Notes under the pieces: model-generated
Database searches by the model: none
Seen by the model: only the letters and a program-made list of their open reading frames with translations
Told to the model about the DNA's origin: nothing
Shown: piece after piece, positions 29,063 to 61,495 of the stretch
How the letters are laid out: each line of letters starts with the position of its first letter
How positions within the stretch are numbered: position 1 is the first letter of the stretch
NCBI RefSeq assembly: GCF_000174415.1
Contig: NZ_ACJM01000011.1
Span: 1 to 64,000 of the forward strand
Length of the DNA stretch: 64,000 nucleotides
Source: Dethiobacter alkaliphilus AHT 1
GTDB lineage: Bacteria; Bacillota; Dethiobacteria; Dethiobacterales; Dethiobacteraceae
Direction: 5' to 3'
Program-made: the position numbers and the translations under genes

Positions 29063-29321
29063 CTCACATTTTTTTTTTAAGTTTTGGTTCTAAAGAATTA
29101 CTTACAGTCATATAATTTAAATTTTAGTCGTATTGGTATTAAGGGCTGTGTATGGTGTGTATAACACTAAAAGGTGCTGATAATACCGGGCCTTGTCCCT
29201 GGGGACACAGCGGTGGATAAAACGGTTTTGTTTTCCACAGGATTCACATATTAACAGTGACCCTTAATTTATTCAGAAACTGACAACAGGAAACAAGCAT
29301 CTTTTCCACAAGTTATCCACA
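29063..29321. other. oriC: dnaA-dnaN intergenic part of oriC
   Basis: About 250 bp with a perfect DnaA box TTATCCACA at 29313-29321 (it overlaps the end of dnaA), and near boxes at 29302-29310 and 29231-29239 (TTTTCCACA), 29212-29220 (reverse, one mismatch) and 29156-29164 (reverse, TTATACACA form). AT-rich tracts at about 29085-29150 could unwind. Firmicute origins usually have this second cluster downstream of dnaA. The dnaN ribosome site is also here. Confidence 0.75.
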
Positions 29322-30677
29322 GTTGTTAATTTTTTCGATTATCTGTTCGATTGTGCCTCGCAACTCATTGTTGTTACGCATGTCCTGTAAGATTTTTTTA
29401 TGGGCATGCATCACGGTGGTGTGGTCTCTTCCGCCAAATTCTTCTCCAATCTTAGGCAGGGAGGCATCGGTCAGCTCTCGGGACAAATACATGGCCACCT
29501 GTCTGGGCAAGGCCACGTTCCTGGTTCTTTTTTTGGCTTTTAACTCTTCCGGTTTAAGAGCAAAGTGCTCGCAGGTTTCTTTTTGAATCCTTTCGATGGT
29601 GATGAATTTTGGACGGTTTTTTTGGGAAAGAATACCTTGTAGTGCTTCCTCGGCCAAAGAAACATCAATATTGCGATTGGTCAGGGAAGAATAAGCTATA
29701 ACCCGGATAAAGGCGCCTTCCAACTCCCGAATGTTGGTGACAATGTTATTTGCTATATATAACATGACATCATTGGCCACCGTGATTTTTTCCGAATGGG
29801 CTTTTTTGCGTAAGATGGCAATTCTTGTCTCCAGATCAGGAGACTGAATATCGGTAATAAGGCCCCATTCAAAACGGGAGCGCAGCCGGTCTTCCAGGGT
29901 GGGAATCTCTTTTGGCGGACGATCACTGGAAATGATAATTTGCTTGTTGTTCTCATGCAGCGCATTAAAGGTGTGGAAAAATTCTTCCTGTGTTTGTTCT
30001 TTACCGGCTAAAAACTGAATATCATCAATCAATAACACATCAATATTACGGTATTTGTTACGAAAATCCACGGTTTTGTTATCACGGATGGAATTGATGA
30101 ACTCATTGGTAAACTTTTCGGAAGAAATATAAAGCACCCGATAAGAGGGGATGTTCTCCAGCACATGGTGGCCAATGGCATGCATCAGGTGAGTTTTTCC
30201 CAGGCCCACTCCCCCATAAATAAACAATGGGTTGTACGCTCGGGCCGGTGCTTCCGATACAGCCAGTGAAGCAGCATGGGCAAAACGGTTACTGTTGCCG
30301 ATGACAAAAGTATCGAAAGTGTACTTGGGGTTCAGCCAGGAAGAGGACAACTTTGGCTCCTCAACCTGCTTTAAACGCGGGGCCGTTTCTTTTTCACCGG
30401 ATGTATCGAAGGTTTCATCTTCGTTGATGCGCGGTGTGATAAAATGAACATGGTAATTTTTATTAGAAACATCCTGCAGAGTTTCTGTGATCATCTCGGC
30501 ATATCTGCCTTGCAGCCAGTCTTTTGTAAAATCATTAGGCACACTGATGACAAGAGTATCGTCACTTAAAGAAACGGGACGTGTAGTTTTTAGCCATGTT
30601 TCAAAACTGGGCTTACTCATCTTCTCCGAAATTTTATCTAGTGTGGCCTGCCAGATTTCCAGCAGTTCCTGTTCCAT
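29313..30677 (-). CDS. dnaA: Chromosomal replication initiator DnaA
   Basis: 454 residues. It binds DnaA boxes, melts oriC and starts replication. Domain I is at 1-85 ([14 protein letters not shown]), a short linker follows, then the AAA+ domain III with [38 protein letters not shown] and sensor motifs, and the DNA-binding domain IV with [15 protein letters not shown]. The ATG has GGAGGG upstream. It is flanked by DnaA boxes on both sides. Confidence 0.98.
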
Positions 30678-31106: not shown

Positions 31107-31242
31107 TTGAAACGGACTTATCAGCCAAAAGTAAGAAAAAGAAAGCGGATTCACGGTTTTCGTAGCCGCATGTCTACGGCTGCGGGCCGTCTGATTATTA
31201 AAAGAAGACGCGCCAAAGGCAGAAAGAGACTGTCTGCTTAAC
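31107..31242 (+). CDS. rpmH: Ribosomal protein L34, apparent one-base frameshift
   Basis: L34 is a small, very basic protein of the large ribosomal subunit. The first 31 codons (TTG start, [18 protein letters not shown] and so on, ribosome site GGAGGTG) align residue for residue with L34. After ATT-ATT the sequence has five A bases (31200-31204) where four are needed; the expected tail [13 protein letters not shown] is encoded in the +1 frame and ends at TAA 31240-31242. Read as given, translation would leave the L34 frame and stop at TAG 31260-31262. L34 is highly conserved, so a sequencing or assembly error is most likely; a real mutation or recoding is less likely. Confidence 0.85.
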
Positions 31243-37417: not shown

Positions 37418-38317
37418 ATGGCGGAGGAATTAAAAACCCTTATGGAGATTGAGGAAACCCAGTTCGATCAGGAGCAGATTCAATACATAGCCATTGCAAA
37501 TATTCGACCAAACCCCTACCAACCACGTAAAAACATCGAAGAGGAAAAAATATATGAGTTGGCGCAGTCAATTAAAACTTACGGGCTGCTCCAACCTGTA
37601 ATTGCCCGTAAGTCTGCCACCGGCTATGAACTGGTGGCGGGGCACCGCCGGCTGTTGGCCTGTAAGAAACTTGGTTGGGCAGAAGTACCGGCCATAGTCA
37701 GGGAATTATCCAACAGTGCCATGGCCACCGTGGCTCTCATTGAGAACCTGCAGCGGGAAAACCTCTCCTTTTTGGAAGAGGCACAGGGCTATGAAAGCCT
37801 GATTCGCGAGTTTAAGTTAACCCAGGAAGTGCTGGCGCAAAGGCTGGGGAAGTCCCAATCCACCATCGCCAACAAGCTGCGTATTCTCAAACTTCCGCGG
37901 GAAGTAAAAGAGAAGTTGCAGATACAGGAGTTGACGGAGCGGCACGCCCGTGCCCTGCTCAAGCTACCTGGCGAAGAAGATCAGTTAAAAATTCTGCAGG
38001 AAGTATGTAACCTGCGTTATACGGTTCAGCAGACTGAGAAACGGGTGGCGGATTATCTCAGTAACCTGGAGCCCACTGCGGTGAAGGAGCGTAAAAAAGT
38101 TATTATCCGCGATATCCGTATTTTCCTGAACACTGTCCGCCAGGCTGTCTCTATCCTGGAAGCCGGCGGGTTAAATGCCCGACTACAGGAAAATGATCTT
38201 GGTGACAGTATTGAGGTTACCATTCGGCTTCCCAAAAACAAAAAGAATTCTGCTCAGGCTGTTAAATCGACATCGGTTGCTGCCGCAGTACAGCGCCCAT
38301 TATTGCCCGGGCAATAA
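37418..38317 (+). CDS. noc: Nucleoid occlusion protein Noc (ParB family)
   Basis: 299 residues. Noc binds DNA sites across the chromosome, needs CTP, and keeps the division septum off the nucleoid. The ParB N-domain has NPYQPRKNI and ELVAGHRRLLACKKLG (residues 71-86), the middle domain ALIENLQRENLSFLEEA, and the helix-turn-helix LAQRLGKSQSTIANKLRILKLP, which is Noc-like (TERHARALL, QTEKRVADYL). The CTP motif, normally GERR, is GHRR at 75-78. It lies before soj and parB, the usual place in Firmicutes. A matching binding palindrome lies at 43457. Confidence 0.93.
   Translation: MAEELKTLMEIEETQFDQEQIQYIAIANIRPNPYQPRKNIEEEKIYELAQSIKTYGLLQPVIARKSATGYELVAGHRRLLACKKLGWAEVPAIVRELSNSAMATVALIENLQRENLSFLEEAQGYESLIREFKLTQEVLAQRLGKSQSTIANKLRILKLPREVKEKLQIQELTERHARALLKLPGEEDQLKILQEVCNLRYTVQQTEKRVADYLSNLEPTAVKERKKVIIRDIRIFLNTVRQAVSILEAGGLNARLQENDLGDSIEVTIRLPKNKKNSAQAVKSTSVAAAVQRPLLPGQ
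38300..38317. promoter_or_regulatory. 18-bp perfect palindrome at the end of noc
   Basis: TTATTGCCCGGGCAATAA is perfectly symmetric and includes the noc stop codon. Its core ATTGCCCGGGCAAT differs from the Noc-binding palindrome ATTTCCCGGGAAAT by one symmetric base pair, so it could be a weak Noc site; it could also be a hairpin in the mRNA. Confidence 0.45.
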
Positions 38318-38471: not shown

Positions 38472-39248
38472 ATGTCCCGTGTAATTGCGGTGGCTAACCA
38501 AAAAGGCGGTGTGGGGAAAACTACCACATCGGTGAATCTGAGTGCGTGCCTGGCTGCACAAGGACGTTCTGTCCTGCTCTTGGATATCGATCCTCAGGGG
38601 AATGCCACAAGTGGAATAGGACAGGAAAAAAAGAATATTAAAGTATGTATTTACGATGCATTAATTAATGAACTGCCCTTAAAAAACATTATTATTAAAT
38701 CCGTCATTAAGAACCTGGATTTGGTTCCGGCCACCATTCAGCTGGCAGGTGCTGAAATTGAGCTGGTACCAACCATGTCCCGTGAAGTTCGGCTACGCCG
38801 CGTCCTGGAAGAGGTCAGAGATTTATACGATTACATAATCATAGATTGTCCTCCTTCCCTGGGCTTGTTAACCATTAATGCCCTAACTGCTGCCGACACT
38901 GTTTTGGTACCAATTCAGTGTGAATATTATGCCCTGGAGGGGCTAAGCCAGCTGACTAATACGGTAAAGCTGGTGCAGAAGCACTTAAACACAGAACTGC
39001 GGTATGAAGGTGTGGTGCTGACAATGTTTGATTCCCGCACCAACCTGGCAAACCAGGTGGCCGACGAGGTGCACAACTATTTTGGTAATAAAGTATTTAA
39101 AACTGTGATTCCCCGGAACGTGCGCCTCAGTGAAGCTCCCAGTCACGGACAACCCATCATTGTCTATGACGAGCGCTCCAAAGGCGCAGAAACATATATA
39201 GAATTGGCAAAGGAAGTGATGGCCAATGAGCAAAAAGCGGCTGGGTAA
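38472..39248 (+). CDS. soj: Chromosome partitioning ATPase Soj (ParA)
   Basis: 258 residues. A Walker-type ATPase that moves ParB-bound origins and affects DnaA. The deviant Walker A is NQKGGVGKTTTSVNLSACLA, Walker A' region DIDPQGNATSGIG, and Walker B DYIIIDCPPSLGLLT. The ATG has GAGGTGG upstream. It overlaps parB by 23 nt. The 154-bp gap to noc shows no other feature. Confidence 0.96.
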   Translation: MSRVIAVANQKGGVGKTTTSVNLSACLAAQGRSVLLLDIDPQGNATSGIGQEKKNIKVCIYDALINELPLKNIIIKSVIKNLDLVPATIQLAGAEIELVPTMSREVRLRRVLEEVRDLYDYIIIDCPPSLGLLTINALTAADTVLVPIQCEYYALEGLSQLTNTVKLVQKHLNTELRYEGVVLTMFDSRTNLANQVADEVHNYFGNKVFKTVIPRNVRLSEAPSHGQPIIVYDERSKGAETYIELAKEVMANEQKAAG

Positions 39249-40074
39249 AGGTCTGCAGGCTCTGATTCCAGAAATAGAGGATACCCCGCTCTCCGATGCG
39301 GTGGATGTGGATGTTGCACAAATCAGTGTTAACCCATATCAGCCCAGAAAGCATTTTGACGAGGAGAAACTGGCGGAGCTAGCTCGCTCCGTGGAACAGC
39401 ACGGAATTCTGCAACCGCTTATTGTGCGTCCCTCCGACGGAGAGTACGAACTGGTGGCGGGAGAAAGAAGGTTACGCGCTGCCAAAAAAGCCGGCCTACA
39501 AAGGGTCCCGGTGGTAATCCGTCCTCTCACCGACAAAGAGATGATGGAGATTGCCTTGATTGAAAACCTGCAAAGGCAGGATTTAAACCCGCTGGAAGAG
39601 GCACAGGCCTATCAGCGCCTGATGGAAGAGTTTAATTACACACAGGAACAGCTGGCTGAAAGGGTTGGAAAAAGCCGCTCAGCGGTGGCAAACACCCTGC
39701 GCCTCACCGCTCTGCACCCCGAGGCACGCAATTTTGTGGCCAACCAGCAGTTAAGTGAGGGGCATGCCCGGGCCATTCTGTCTCTACCCTTGGAAAAGCA
39801 ACCCCTAGCCGCCCGTAAAGCGGTGGAGTTGGGCCTGTCAGTCCGGGATACGGAGAGAATGGCCGGCCAGGAGCCGAAGAAGAAAGCGGCGAGAAAGCCA
39901 AGGGCAGCAACCGGTGGGGCCACAGACAGCTATATTGCCGACTTGGAGGACAGGTTGCGTCAGGTCTGTGGAACGGCAGTAAACGTTCGCATGTCTGCCA
40001 AAGGCGGCGGCAAGTTGGAGATTCAGTTTTACGATCTGGATGAACTGGAAAGAGTATGCGAGATATTATTTTAA
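39226..40074 (+). CDS. parB: Chromosome partitioning protein ParB (Spo0J)
   Basis: 282 residues. A CTP-dependent clamp that loads at parS. It begins KKRLGKGLQALIP and has NPYQPRKHFDEEKL, the CTP motif GERRLRAAKKAGL, ALIENLQRQDLNPLEEA and HTH VGKSRSAVANTLRL. A Lys/Arg/Ala-rich linker leads to the dimerisation domain. Two parS sites lie just downstream. Confidence 0.96.
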   Translation: MSKKRLGKGLQALIPEIEDTPLSDAVDVDVAQISVNPYQPRKHFDEEKLAELARSVEQHGILQPLIVRPSDGEYELVAGERRLRAAKKAGLQRVPVVIRPLTDKEMMEIALIENLQRQDLNPLEEAQAYQRLMEEFNYTQEQLAERVGKSRSAVANTLRLTALHPEARNFVANQQLSEGHARAILSLPLEKQPLAARKAVELGLSVRDTERMAGQEPKKKAARKPRAATGGATDSYIADLEDRLRQVCGTAVNVRMSAKGGGKLEIQFYDLDELERVCEILF

Positions 40075-40088
40075 TCAGTACTATAATT

Positions 40089-40104
40089 TGTTTCACGTGA
40101 AACA
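40089..40104. promoter_or_regulatory. parS: parS site 1
   Basis: TGTTTCACGTGAAACA, an exact match to the 16-bp parS palindrome. It starts 15 bp after parB. Confidence 0.97.
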
Positions 40105-40123: not shown

Positions 40124-40139
40124 TGTTTCACGTGAAACA
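40124..40139. promoter_or_regulatory. parS: parS site 2
   Basis: A second exact 16-bp parS palindrome, 35 bp from the first (start to start), just before the DUF554 gene. Two sites together should give strong local ParB loading. Confidence 0.97.
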
Positions 40140-42723: not shown

Positions 42724-43362
42724 TCATCCTGAATGTACAAGTTCGGGCTTGCCTTGCTTTTTACTGTCGTCACTGCTTAGCCTGGGTAGGCTCTGCAGGC
42801 TGAAATAAAGCCCCCGGGCGATGGTTTCCGCCAGCCGGACCACCACGCTGAGGCGGGTGTTTTGCAAAACAAAGTACTCTAAGAAACCTCCCACATTAAC
42901 AATGCCGTTGATATGGATTTCTCCTACGGCGGGTAACTCTTTGTTTACTCCTGCTCCCGGTTTCATGGGACCAATGCCGATGTCGATGGACCCCACGCTT
43001 TCCATCCGCCCCAGGCAGGCATCCACCGCAATTATCAGAGGAGAGGGGTAAGTGTTATTAATTTTGTCAATGGTTTCTGCTAAATTAACTGCATGTACCG
43101 GTTCATCCAGAGTGCCAAAAATTGCGGCATGCCTGGGTTGAAGGCGTCCTAGTTTGGTGCCGATTAACGGTCCCAGGGCATCGCCTGTGGACCGGTCTGT
43201 CCCGATACACAACACCACAAGCTGATGAACGGGTTGCTGATATTTATCCTCCAGCATCTGATTAAGTGTACACCTAATTTTTTGAACTGCAAAAGGATCG
43301 GTACTTTCAACTCTGACGTTCTTTTTATGTGGACTCAGAAGACGATTTCCAATGTTAGACAT
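42724..43362 (-). CDS. yyaC: Spore protease YyaC (DUF1256)
   Basis: 212 residues. Family marks: VVLCIGTDRSTGDALGPLIG, PLIIAVDACLGRMESVGSI, GPMKPGAGVNKELPAVGEI and NVGGFLEYFVLQNTRL. In B. subtilis YyaC is a spore-associated protease-like protein related to Gpr. ATG at 43362 with a GGGGG stretch six bases upstream is chosen over a TTG five codons earlier. It is a minus-strand gene inside the rightward arm. Supports an endospore-forming host. Confidence 0.9.
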   Translation of the reverse strand: MSNIGNRLLSPHKKNVRVESTDPFAVQKIRCTLNQMLEDKYQQPVHQLVVLCIGTDRSTGDALGPLIGTKLGRLQPRHAAIFGTLDEPVHAVNLAETIDKINNTYPSPLIIAVDACLGRMESVGSIDIGIGPMKPGAGVNKELPAVGEIHINGIVNVGGFLEYFVLQNTRLSVVVRLAETIARGLYFSLQSLPRLSSDDSKKQGKPELVHSG

Positions 43363-43456
43363 AGCATACCCCCGCAAAGAATACGTATATGATAGTATAT
43401 TTAACTGCCATCCTTTTTATGTGTAGAGTATTTGGCATACTATGGTAATTTTCGTT

Positions 43457-43470
43457 ATTTCCCGGGAAAT
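43457..43470. promoter_or_regulatory. Noc-binding site (NBS)
   Basis: ATTTCCCGGGAAAT, an exact match to the 14-bp palindrome bound by Bacillus subtilis Noc. It lies between yyaC and the cvpA-like gene, 23 bp before the latter's start codon, so it may also affect that promoter. Confidence 0.85.
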
Positions 43471-43492
43471 AAAGTTATGCGGAGGTTTTAGA

Positions 43493-44131
43493 ATGTCCTG
43501 GATCGATCTGGCTGCATTGACCATGACCCTGTGGAGCGCGGCAAAGGGCTACATCTACGGCGGCTATAAAATGTTTCTGCACTGTCTGGGGCTGGGGGCA
43601 GCTTTAGCCATGGCGGTTTATTTTCAACGTCCATTTAGTGCCTACCTTAATCAGGAGTGGCAGGCAGAAACAGTCTTTGCAGAATTCTTTAGCAAAAATT
43701 CGCAATTGGTGCTGGAAGCCGGCACGTCCCAAACAACAGGAGTTAACCTCCCCCCCCTGGCCGGGCAGGTTATGCTGAGACTGATGCCGGAGGCACAGCT
43801 GCTGCCGGCGGCTACGGGAGAAGGAGCCCTGGCACTGATGGCAACCATGCTGGTAAAAGTGCTGGCTCTCTTTGTTTTCTTTGTATTTATAGCAGCGATT
43901 ATCACCCTGCTCATCAGAGTAAAGCACTTTGGAACAAATTGGAAAAATATACCAGAGCATCAGCGGCTGGTCGGTGTACTTTTGGGCGCTTTATATGGGC
44001 TGATGTTATCAATGGTGGTTTGTGTAGCGCTGGATGCCCTGTCCATGCTGGGCATTTTCGGTTTTTTGCATCAAGACCTGACCGTTTCCTATCTTGCCTG
44101 GATGGTATCTTATCTACTGCAGTTTATCTGA
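43493..44131 (+). CDS. CvpA-like membrane protein
   Basis: 212 residues with about four hydrophobic segments (near 5-20, 25-45, 110-140 and 155-185) and the CvpA-like start SWIDLAALTMTLWSAAKGYIYGG. The family is named for colicin V production but its true role is unknown; envelope homeostasis is the usual suggestion. ATG at 43493 has GGAGG upstream; a longer frame to 43442 crosses the Noc site and lacks a ribosome site. Confidence 0.75.
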   Translation: MSWIDLAALTMTLWSAAKGYIYGGYKMFLHCLGLGAALAMAVYFQRPFSAYLNQEWQAETVFAEFFSKNSQLVLEAGTSQTTGVNLPPLAGQVMLRLMPEAQLLPAATGEGALALMATMLVKVLALFVFFVFIAAIITLLIRVKHFGTNWKNIPEHQRLVGVLLGALYGLMLSMVVCVALDALSMLGIFGFLHQDLTVSYLAWMVSYLLQFI

Positions 44132-60647: not shown

Positions 60648-61495
60648 TGGATCTTTCCAGAGCAAAAACCATTCTGATTATAGCCTTTCTGCTGCTAAAT
60701 ATTTTTTTGGGTTACCGCCTCTGGTATACCCCTCAGTTTCTGCAGGCCGGACAGGTCATTACCTCAGAAGAAGTGGAAGCAGCCCGGCAATTGCTGCGGG
60801 AACATGGCTATGAGTTGCAGGCAGCCATCCCCCGTGAGGTGCCACGCCTTGCCCTTTTACATGTTTCCCGGGAAGCAAAGCCTCCGTCAGCCTGGGCTAA
60901 ACTCCTGCTGGATGAAGAAGTGCCCGGCGTGGTGACAGAAACAGGCAGCATTAAATTTCAAAGCGGTGAGGCCTCGGTGGAGGTAGCCCCCAACGGCCAG
61001 GTAATATATCGCCGCGATAAGACCGGCGCTGCTTCCGGGGATACATCTCCACAGACAGCCGATAGTTTCCTGAGGGAGCGGCAGCTTTGGTACGATGACT
61101 TAACCTTGGATGCGCAGCAACCCCTTGGCACCCAGGAGGGCAGCCGCATCAGTTATGTGCAGACGCACCAGGGGTTTCCCATATTTTTCAGTACAATTGA
61201 TGTTTTTATTGCCGATGGCTTTGTATATGGTGCTAACTTTTACCGGGTTAATCCCCTGAGCTTTAGCGAGCAGGAAGTACAGGTTATTTCCGCAGCGGAG
61301 GCCATGGAGGCCTTTATCGAAATATCTGCCGATTCTGGCGAAAATAAAATTACCGATATCTCCCTGGGGTATTTCAGCGCGGAATATGACGCTGAGCGCT
61401 GGGAAATAGTGCCTGTTTGGCGAATTACCGCCGATGATGGCTCCGCTCTGTATATTAATGCCTTTACCGGAGAAGCCGAAGCTTCCGCCTTGTAA
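60647..61495 (+). CDS. walI: WalK regulator WalI (YycI)
   Basis: 282 residues. Short N-terminal tail MDLSRAKTILIIAFLLLNIFLGY with a transmembrane helix, then an external domain; the phrase DLSRAKTILIIAFLLLN is typical of YycI. It pairs with WalH in the membrane to tune WalK. Coupled to walH by overlap. Confidence 0.88.
   Translation: MDLSRAKTILIIAFLLLNIFLGYRLWYTPQFLQAGQVITSEEVEAARQLLREHGYELQAAIPREVPRLALLHVSREAKPPSAWAKLLLDEEVPGVVTETGSIKFQSGEASVEVAPNGQVIYRRDKTGAASGDTSPQTADSFLRERQLWYDDLTLDAQQPLGTQEGSRISYVQTHQGFPIFFSTIDVFIADGFVYGANFYRVNPLSFSEQEVQVISAAEAMEAFIEISADSGENKITDISLGYFSAEYDAERWEIVPVWRITADDGSALYINAFTGEAEASAL

Follow-up and report, generated by a model that had tools for sequence, protein, structure and literature searches.

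A probable Noc-binding palindrome near noc in Dethiobacter alkaliphilus, and candidate self-encoded sites at homologous codons of noc and parB

Introduction

Does a single perfect copy of the Noc-binding sequence (NBS) in a genome mark a place where Noc loads, or can it be put down to codon usage, to some other DNA-binding protein or to RNA structure? The question is raised by the palindrome ATTTCCCGGGAAAT, found in a 64,000-nucleotide stretch of Dethiobacter alkaliphilus AHT 1 (contig NZ_ACJM01000011.1, positions 1 to 64,000), which we call the window. Noc, which is related to ParB, prevents the cell from dividing across its chromosome. We asked what the palindrome, its gene neighbourhood and its counterparts in related genomes suggest about its function, and then extended the comparison to noc and parB genes across the phylum.

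Results

An exact NBS in the cvpA leader

In a sequence search, ATTTCCCGGGAAAT at 43457-43470 was the sole exact copy both in the window and in the whole 3.11-Mb genome. A first-pass annotation had called it a perfect Noc-binding palindrome, and it turned out to be even longer than that, with perfect symmetry over the 18 bp of TTATTTCCCGGGAAATAA (43455-43472) centred on the exact 14-bp NBS. The full 16-bp consensus TATTTCCCGGGAAATA, as used by Jalal et al. (PMC7383237), is therefore contained in it and matched exactly. The stop of noc (37418-38317, + strand) is 5.1 kb upstream of the site, in agreement with the 5 kb first given; the likely oriC, which sequence and gene order place in the gap between dnaA (29313-30677, - strand) and rpmH (at 31107), at ~30.7-31.1 kb, is about 12.5 kb away. 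It was also said to precede a cvpA-like start: 22 nt, including the ribosome-binding site GGAGG, separate the 14-mer from the ATG of a gene (43493-44131, + strand) that passes the Pfam cut-off for the Colicin_V family (PF02674, 34 bits against 29.3), and a search for viral homologues of this cvpA found none. The palindrome thus sits in the cvpA leader, with the ribosome-binding site directly after it and the divergent spore protease-family gene yyaC (42724-43362, - strand; TIGR02841) on the far side of the intergenic region.

Two other sequences in the window deserve mention. A (C/G)ATAGTATA element at 43385-43405, between yyaC and cvpA, is conserved in all five members of the family compared below and is possibly a promoter element of one of the two genes. 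At 60862-60877, TGTTTCCCGGGAAGCA is a near-hybrid that combines parS flanks with an NBS core.

Since an 18-nt perfect palindrome could give a 7-bp hairpin, we considered whether the site acts in RNA, as a hairpin or a terminator in the cvpA leader. Shuffled versions of that leader fold better than the real one (z = +1.4) and no terminator-like site was found there on either strand; on these two grounds this reading was rejected, and we regard its probability as negligible.

The gene at 37418 encodes a Noc with NBS-type specificity residues

The annotation of a Noc-type ParB paralogue at 37418 was confirmed by family score, specificity residues and tree placement. The 299-aa product passes the TIGR04285 cut-off (337.2 bits against 315) whereas that of the neighbouring parB (spo0J; 39226-40074, + strand) fails it (250); parA (soj) occupies 38472-39248, + strand. 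The nearest solved structures to the window Noc are Noc structures (7nfu, 7ng0, 7ol9). At the four residues that set NBS versus parS preference (Q173, K179, K184 and R201 in Caulobacter ParB numbering; Jalal et al., PMC7383237), the window Noc has QKKR and the window ParB RTAG. All 93 distinct Noc proteins examined in a 199-genome phylum sample share the first of these residues (Q) and the fourth (R), two positions that were also used for sorting Noc from ParB, and a quick tree has a branch (SH-aLRT 96) that separates the 93 Noc rows from ParB. One genome of the sample (G043) has two Noc paralogues (L086 and L102), both with QKKR, and an NBS in the hinge of one of them.

For comparison within the family we used the window, three metagenome assemblies (L016, L017 and L018, two of them named Dethiobacter sp.) and a further genome, G096 (locus L111). 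The CTPase motif ENLQR is kept in the window Noc, while GERR is changed to GHRR with both arginines retained. The same change is seen in L016-L018, which read GHRRLL or GHRRLM where others have GERRxR; G096 keeps GERRLR despite belonging to the same family.

Near-exact sites are in modest excess genome-wide

A genome-wide scan for enrichment of the motif over chance had been proposed as a check. Allowing up to one mismatch to the NBS, the genome has 14 sites, and allowing up to two, 75. For the expected numbers we trained a 3-periodic Markov model, which takes codon usage into account, on a 400-kb sample of this genome; shuffling alone would not have served, as the sample contained no near-exact site. 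The near-exact sites exceeded expectation (14 against 2.4-5.1, P 3e-7 to 8e-4 depending on model order), as did ATTNCCCGGGNAAT (9 against 0.8-2.8, with 0 for its reversed control). At two mismatches the enrichment was weak: 75 sites against 38-65, the high-order codon models predicting 61-65, so that the excess is nearly gone. The genome-wide excess is real but modest, and restricted to near-exact sites; a lack of enrichment, which the first-pass annotation had named as refuting, was thus not what the scan showed. An apparent 14-fold enrichment, obtained with simple reversed or rearranged palindromes as controls (0-1 at one mismatch), was rejected as too generous; such controls are unfair because ATTTCCCGGGAAAT reads as the favoured codons ATT-TCC-CGG-GAA, Ile-Ser-Arg-Glu.

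The same codons could make NBS-like strings common, in which case the palindrome would have arisen by chance and would lie near noc by accident. That most of the 14 near-exact genomic sites are inside open frames, mostly reading ISRE-like in frame 0, fits such an origin, as do two-mismatch counts near the codon-aware expectation. However, codon usage fails to explain the 43457 site, which is outside the cvpA and yyaC coding sequences, and exact 16-mers are expected only 0.004-0.014 times per genome under the codon-aware model. For exact 14-mers the figure is 0.08-0.19, so one exact copy at an unspecified place is only slightly out of the ordinary; what counts for this site is its position near noc together with its recurrence in relatives.

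Two class-level relatives (G057 and G160) have four exact NBS copies each. Across the phylum sample, near-exact sites average 7.6 in genomes with noc and 3.5 in those without (Mann-Whitney p = 2e-10, relatedness ignored). Four genomes in which no Noc was found (G045, G048, G087 and G122) have 17-24 near-exact NBS-like sites each, where another protein may use an NBS-like motif, and three with Noc (G039, G152 and G179) have no near-exact site, their Noc perhaps preferring another sequence; motif count alone is therefore not diagnostic. Because the window genome consists of 34 unordered contigs, distribution along the chromosome was followed in four other near-complete noc-containing genomes, where 12 of 71 sites fall in the terminal third (P 0.0016). 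The Bacillus-like G139 is the main source of this deficit (11 of 50 sites without it, P 0.06), and G091 runs contrary to the pattern.

Sites recur at the noc 3' end and upstream of cvpA in the family

A second NBS-like perfect palindrome, TTATTGCCCGGGCAATAA at 38300-38317 (palindrome 38302), differs from the NBS at two symmetric positions and spans the last codons of noc and its stop. In all four relatives a copy of ATTTCCCAGGCAAT lies no more than about 10 bp from the noc stop, and an NBS-like site at the noc 3' end is present in all five family members. Upstream of cvpA the window has the exact site; its counterpart differs from the NBS at one position in L018, at two in G096 (L111) and at four in L017, and in L016 it has been lost to erosion. 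This site recurs, with erosion, in four of the five. The window Noc is about 67-78% identical to those of the four relatives (core at most 78%), and given such coding divergence the recurrence of both sites suggests selection, albeit within a small set of five related genomes. This recurrence, which includes a site at every noc end, speaks against accident, and we consider a chance origin of the 43457 palindrome very unlikely. The further claim of the first-pass annotation, that Noc keeps its DNA specificity in this lineage, is well supported by this recurrence, the TIGR04285 score, the QKKR residues and the exact NBS copies in class-level relatives.

The family's Noc has an acidic N-terminal helix

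Most Noc proteins in the sample begin with a short cationic amphipathic stretch (MKEQLSKLLG-like), reminiscent of the stretch by which B. subtilis Noc is targeted to the membrane (PMC8429893). The window Noc instead has an acidic N-terminus (MAEELKTLMEIEE; 37418-37460). For MAEELKTLMEIE the hydrophobic moment is 0.62, like that of other Noc, but the net charge is -3, as against +1 to +3 in most others. Starts resembling MAEELKTLMEIE occur in the four relatives too, in the same hydrophobic register, and net charges across the five are -2 to -3 (for L016 the start was set by eye at MGDDLKTLIDIE, the automatic choice being an upstream ATG). With the hydrophobic face kept but the positive charge lost, membrane tethering by the window Noc is doubtful, and with an acidic helix in place of the usual cationic one, so is any confident assignment of nucleoid occlusion. 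As far as the sequences can tell, Noc of this family may have kept its DNA specificity while differing in membrane tethering and nucleotide handling.

These features bear on the idea that Noc binds the site but that selection acts through local gene control (feedback on noc-parAB, or control of cvpA) rather than nucleoid occlusion. The acidic N-terminus, which speaks against the known membrane tether, is compatible with it, and so are the positions of the two sites, one at the noc stop and in the parA leader, the other in the cvpA leader. On the other hand, further near-exact sites lie elsewhere in the genome and no promoter overlap was found at the site, and to us local control as the main function seems possible but rather unlikely.

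Candidate self-encoded sites at homologous codons of noc and parB

We scanned 93 Noc loci (191 kb) from the phylum sample and found exact ATTTCCCGGGAAAT inside the noc ORF in 25 of them (L019, L020, L031, L045, L050, L054, L061, L068, L070, L071, L073, L075, L077, L079, L080, L086, L090, L091, L095, L098, L103, L106-L108 and L110), or 24 distinct genes; L019 and L031 appear to be one organism. Eight control palindromes each gave at most one match in the same loci, even with one mismatch allowed. The in-gene NBS is always in frame 0, reading ISREI or ISREM, and in 19 of the 24 genes it directly precedes the recognition segment (T/S)ERHAR, the other five having it in the hinge after the DNA-binding domain. 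Within those 19 genes the codons ATT-TCC-CGG-GAA never vary and ATA or ATG comes next. Each of the neighbouring residues E, R, H and L, no less conserved, is encoded by two to five synonymous codons, indicating that the DNA sequence, and not the peptide alone, is under selection. The window family has no NBS before TERHAR and has one at the noc 3' end instead.

Such a prevalence inside noc also matters for the 43457 site, which might be the operator of an unrelated transcription factor acting on cvpA or the divergent yyaC, with Noc uninvolved. An intergenic position in a 5' leader, 22 nt before a start codon, would suit an operator, and some genomes lacking noc have many NBS-like palindromes. 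Yet the half-site matches the known Noc specificity exactly, and the same type of motif occurs at the noc end in every family member and within noc in the 25 loci elsewhere; we judge an operator of this kind very unlikely.

The known parS within B. subtilis spo0J has counterparts in the sample. In 16 ParB (L020, L023-L025, L036, L042, L120, L122-L129 and L131) a parS inside the ORF reads VSRET or VSRGT directly before xxGHAR, in the same alignment column and the same register as the in-gene NBS of noc. Seven genomes (G001, G021, G065, G138, G168, G171 and G193) and locus L020 have both in-gene sites together, and the hinge is a second region common to the in-gene sites of both paralogues. The two genes, then, have predicted self-encoded sites at homologous codons, each fitting the specificity of its own protein. 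The literature searched held no mention of the in-gene NBS of noc (ISREI before TERHAR), nor any papers on Noc in Clostridia or Negativicutes.

Shared descent through duplication is the simplest reading of this coincidence. The site of an ancestral gene would have been inherited through the duplication, becoming VSRET/VSRGT (parS) in parB and ISREI (NBS) in noc, its specificity bases co-evolving with the switch in protein specificity; in the lineage of the window and some others the in-gene copy would have been lost, with an NBS at the noc 3' end instead, and a self-encoded site in cis would be a selected part of the system and not an accident of location. We give this whole scenario about an even chance. 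On the tree, the in-gene site needs six changes within Noc, and the sites may instead have arisen by repeated gain at a permissive loop, or by gene conversion.

Discussion

We conclude that 43455-43472 is probably a genuine Noc-binding and nucleation site. Noc, encoded 5 kb away, would load there as a CTP-dependent clamp and slide over the adjacent origin-proximal DNA, and the noc-parAB-cvpA cluster would hold at least two NBS, this one and that at the noc 3' end. We infer this binding, loading and spreading from what was observed: the sequence itself, the specificity residues, the positional recurrence and the modest genome-wide excess. The most likely role of such a site would be to mark the origin region or to act in nucleoid occlusion as in B. 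subtilis, and any effect on expression of cvpA or noc would be secondary.

Compared with the systems of B. subtilis and S. aureus (PMC8429893, PMC5540599), the window has an identical site consensus; its Noc likewise carries QKKR-type residues and keeps ENLQR and both GxRR arginines, and its noc gene adjoins rsmG and parAB. At the same time, near-exact sites in its genome are few (14 allowing up to one mismatch, only one of them exact), its Noc has an acidic rather than cationic N-terminal helix and GHRR rather than GERR, and its sites lie at the 3' end of noc and in the leader of cvpA. A parS in or beside parB/spo0J is comparable in that the clamp nucleates in cis to its own gene; two exact parS (TGTTTCACGTGAAACA, at 40089-40104 and 40124-40139) directly follow the window parB. 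Unlike a parS embedded in parB, the noc-linked site of this lineage is at the 3' end of the gene.

The divergence of Noc and NBS from ParB and parS has so far been studied mainly as protein mutations (PMC7383237). A site in homologous codons of both paralogues connects the change in protein specificity with a DNA site that the gene itself contains and that would serve as a molecular record of the change, and raises the question of why clamp proteins should encode their own loading site. For the Dethiobacteraceae, the window site extends the predicted NBS specificity to this family, whose Noc seemingly does without the cationic membrane helix, suggesting that the two properties, DNA specificity and membrane tethering, may be separable.
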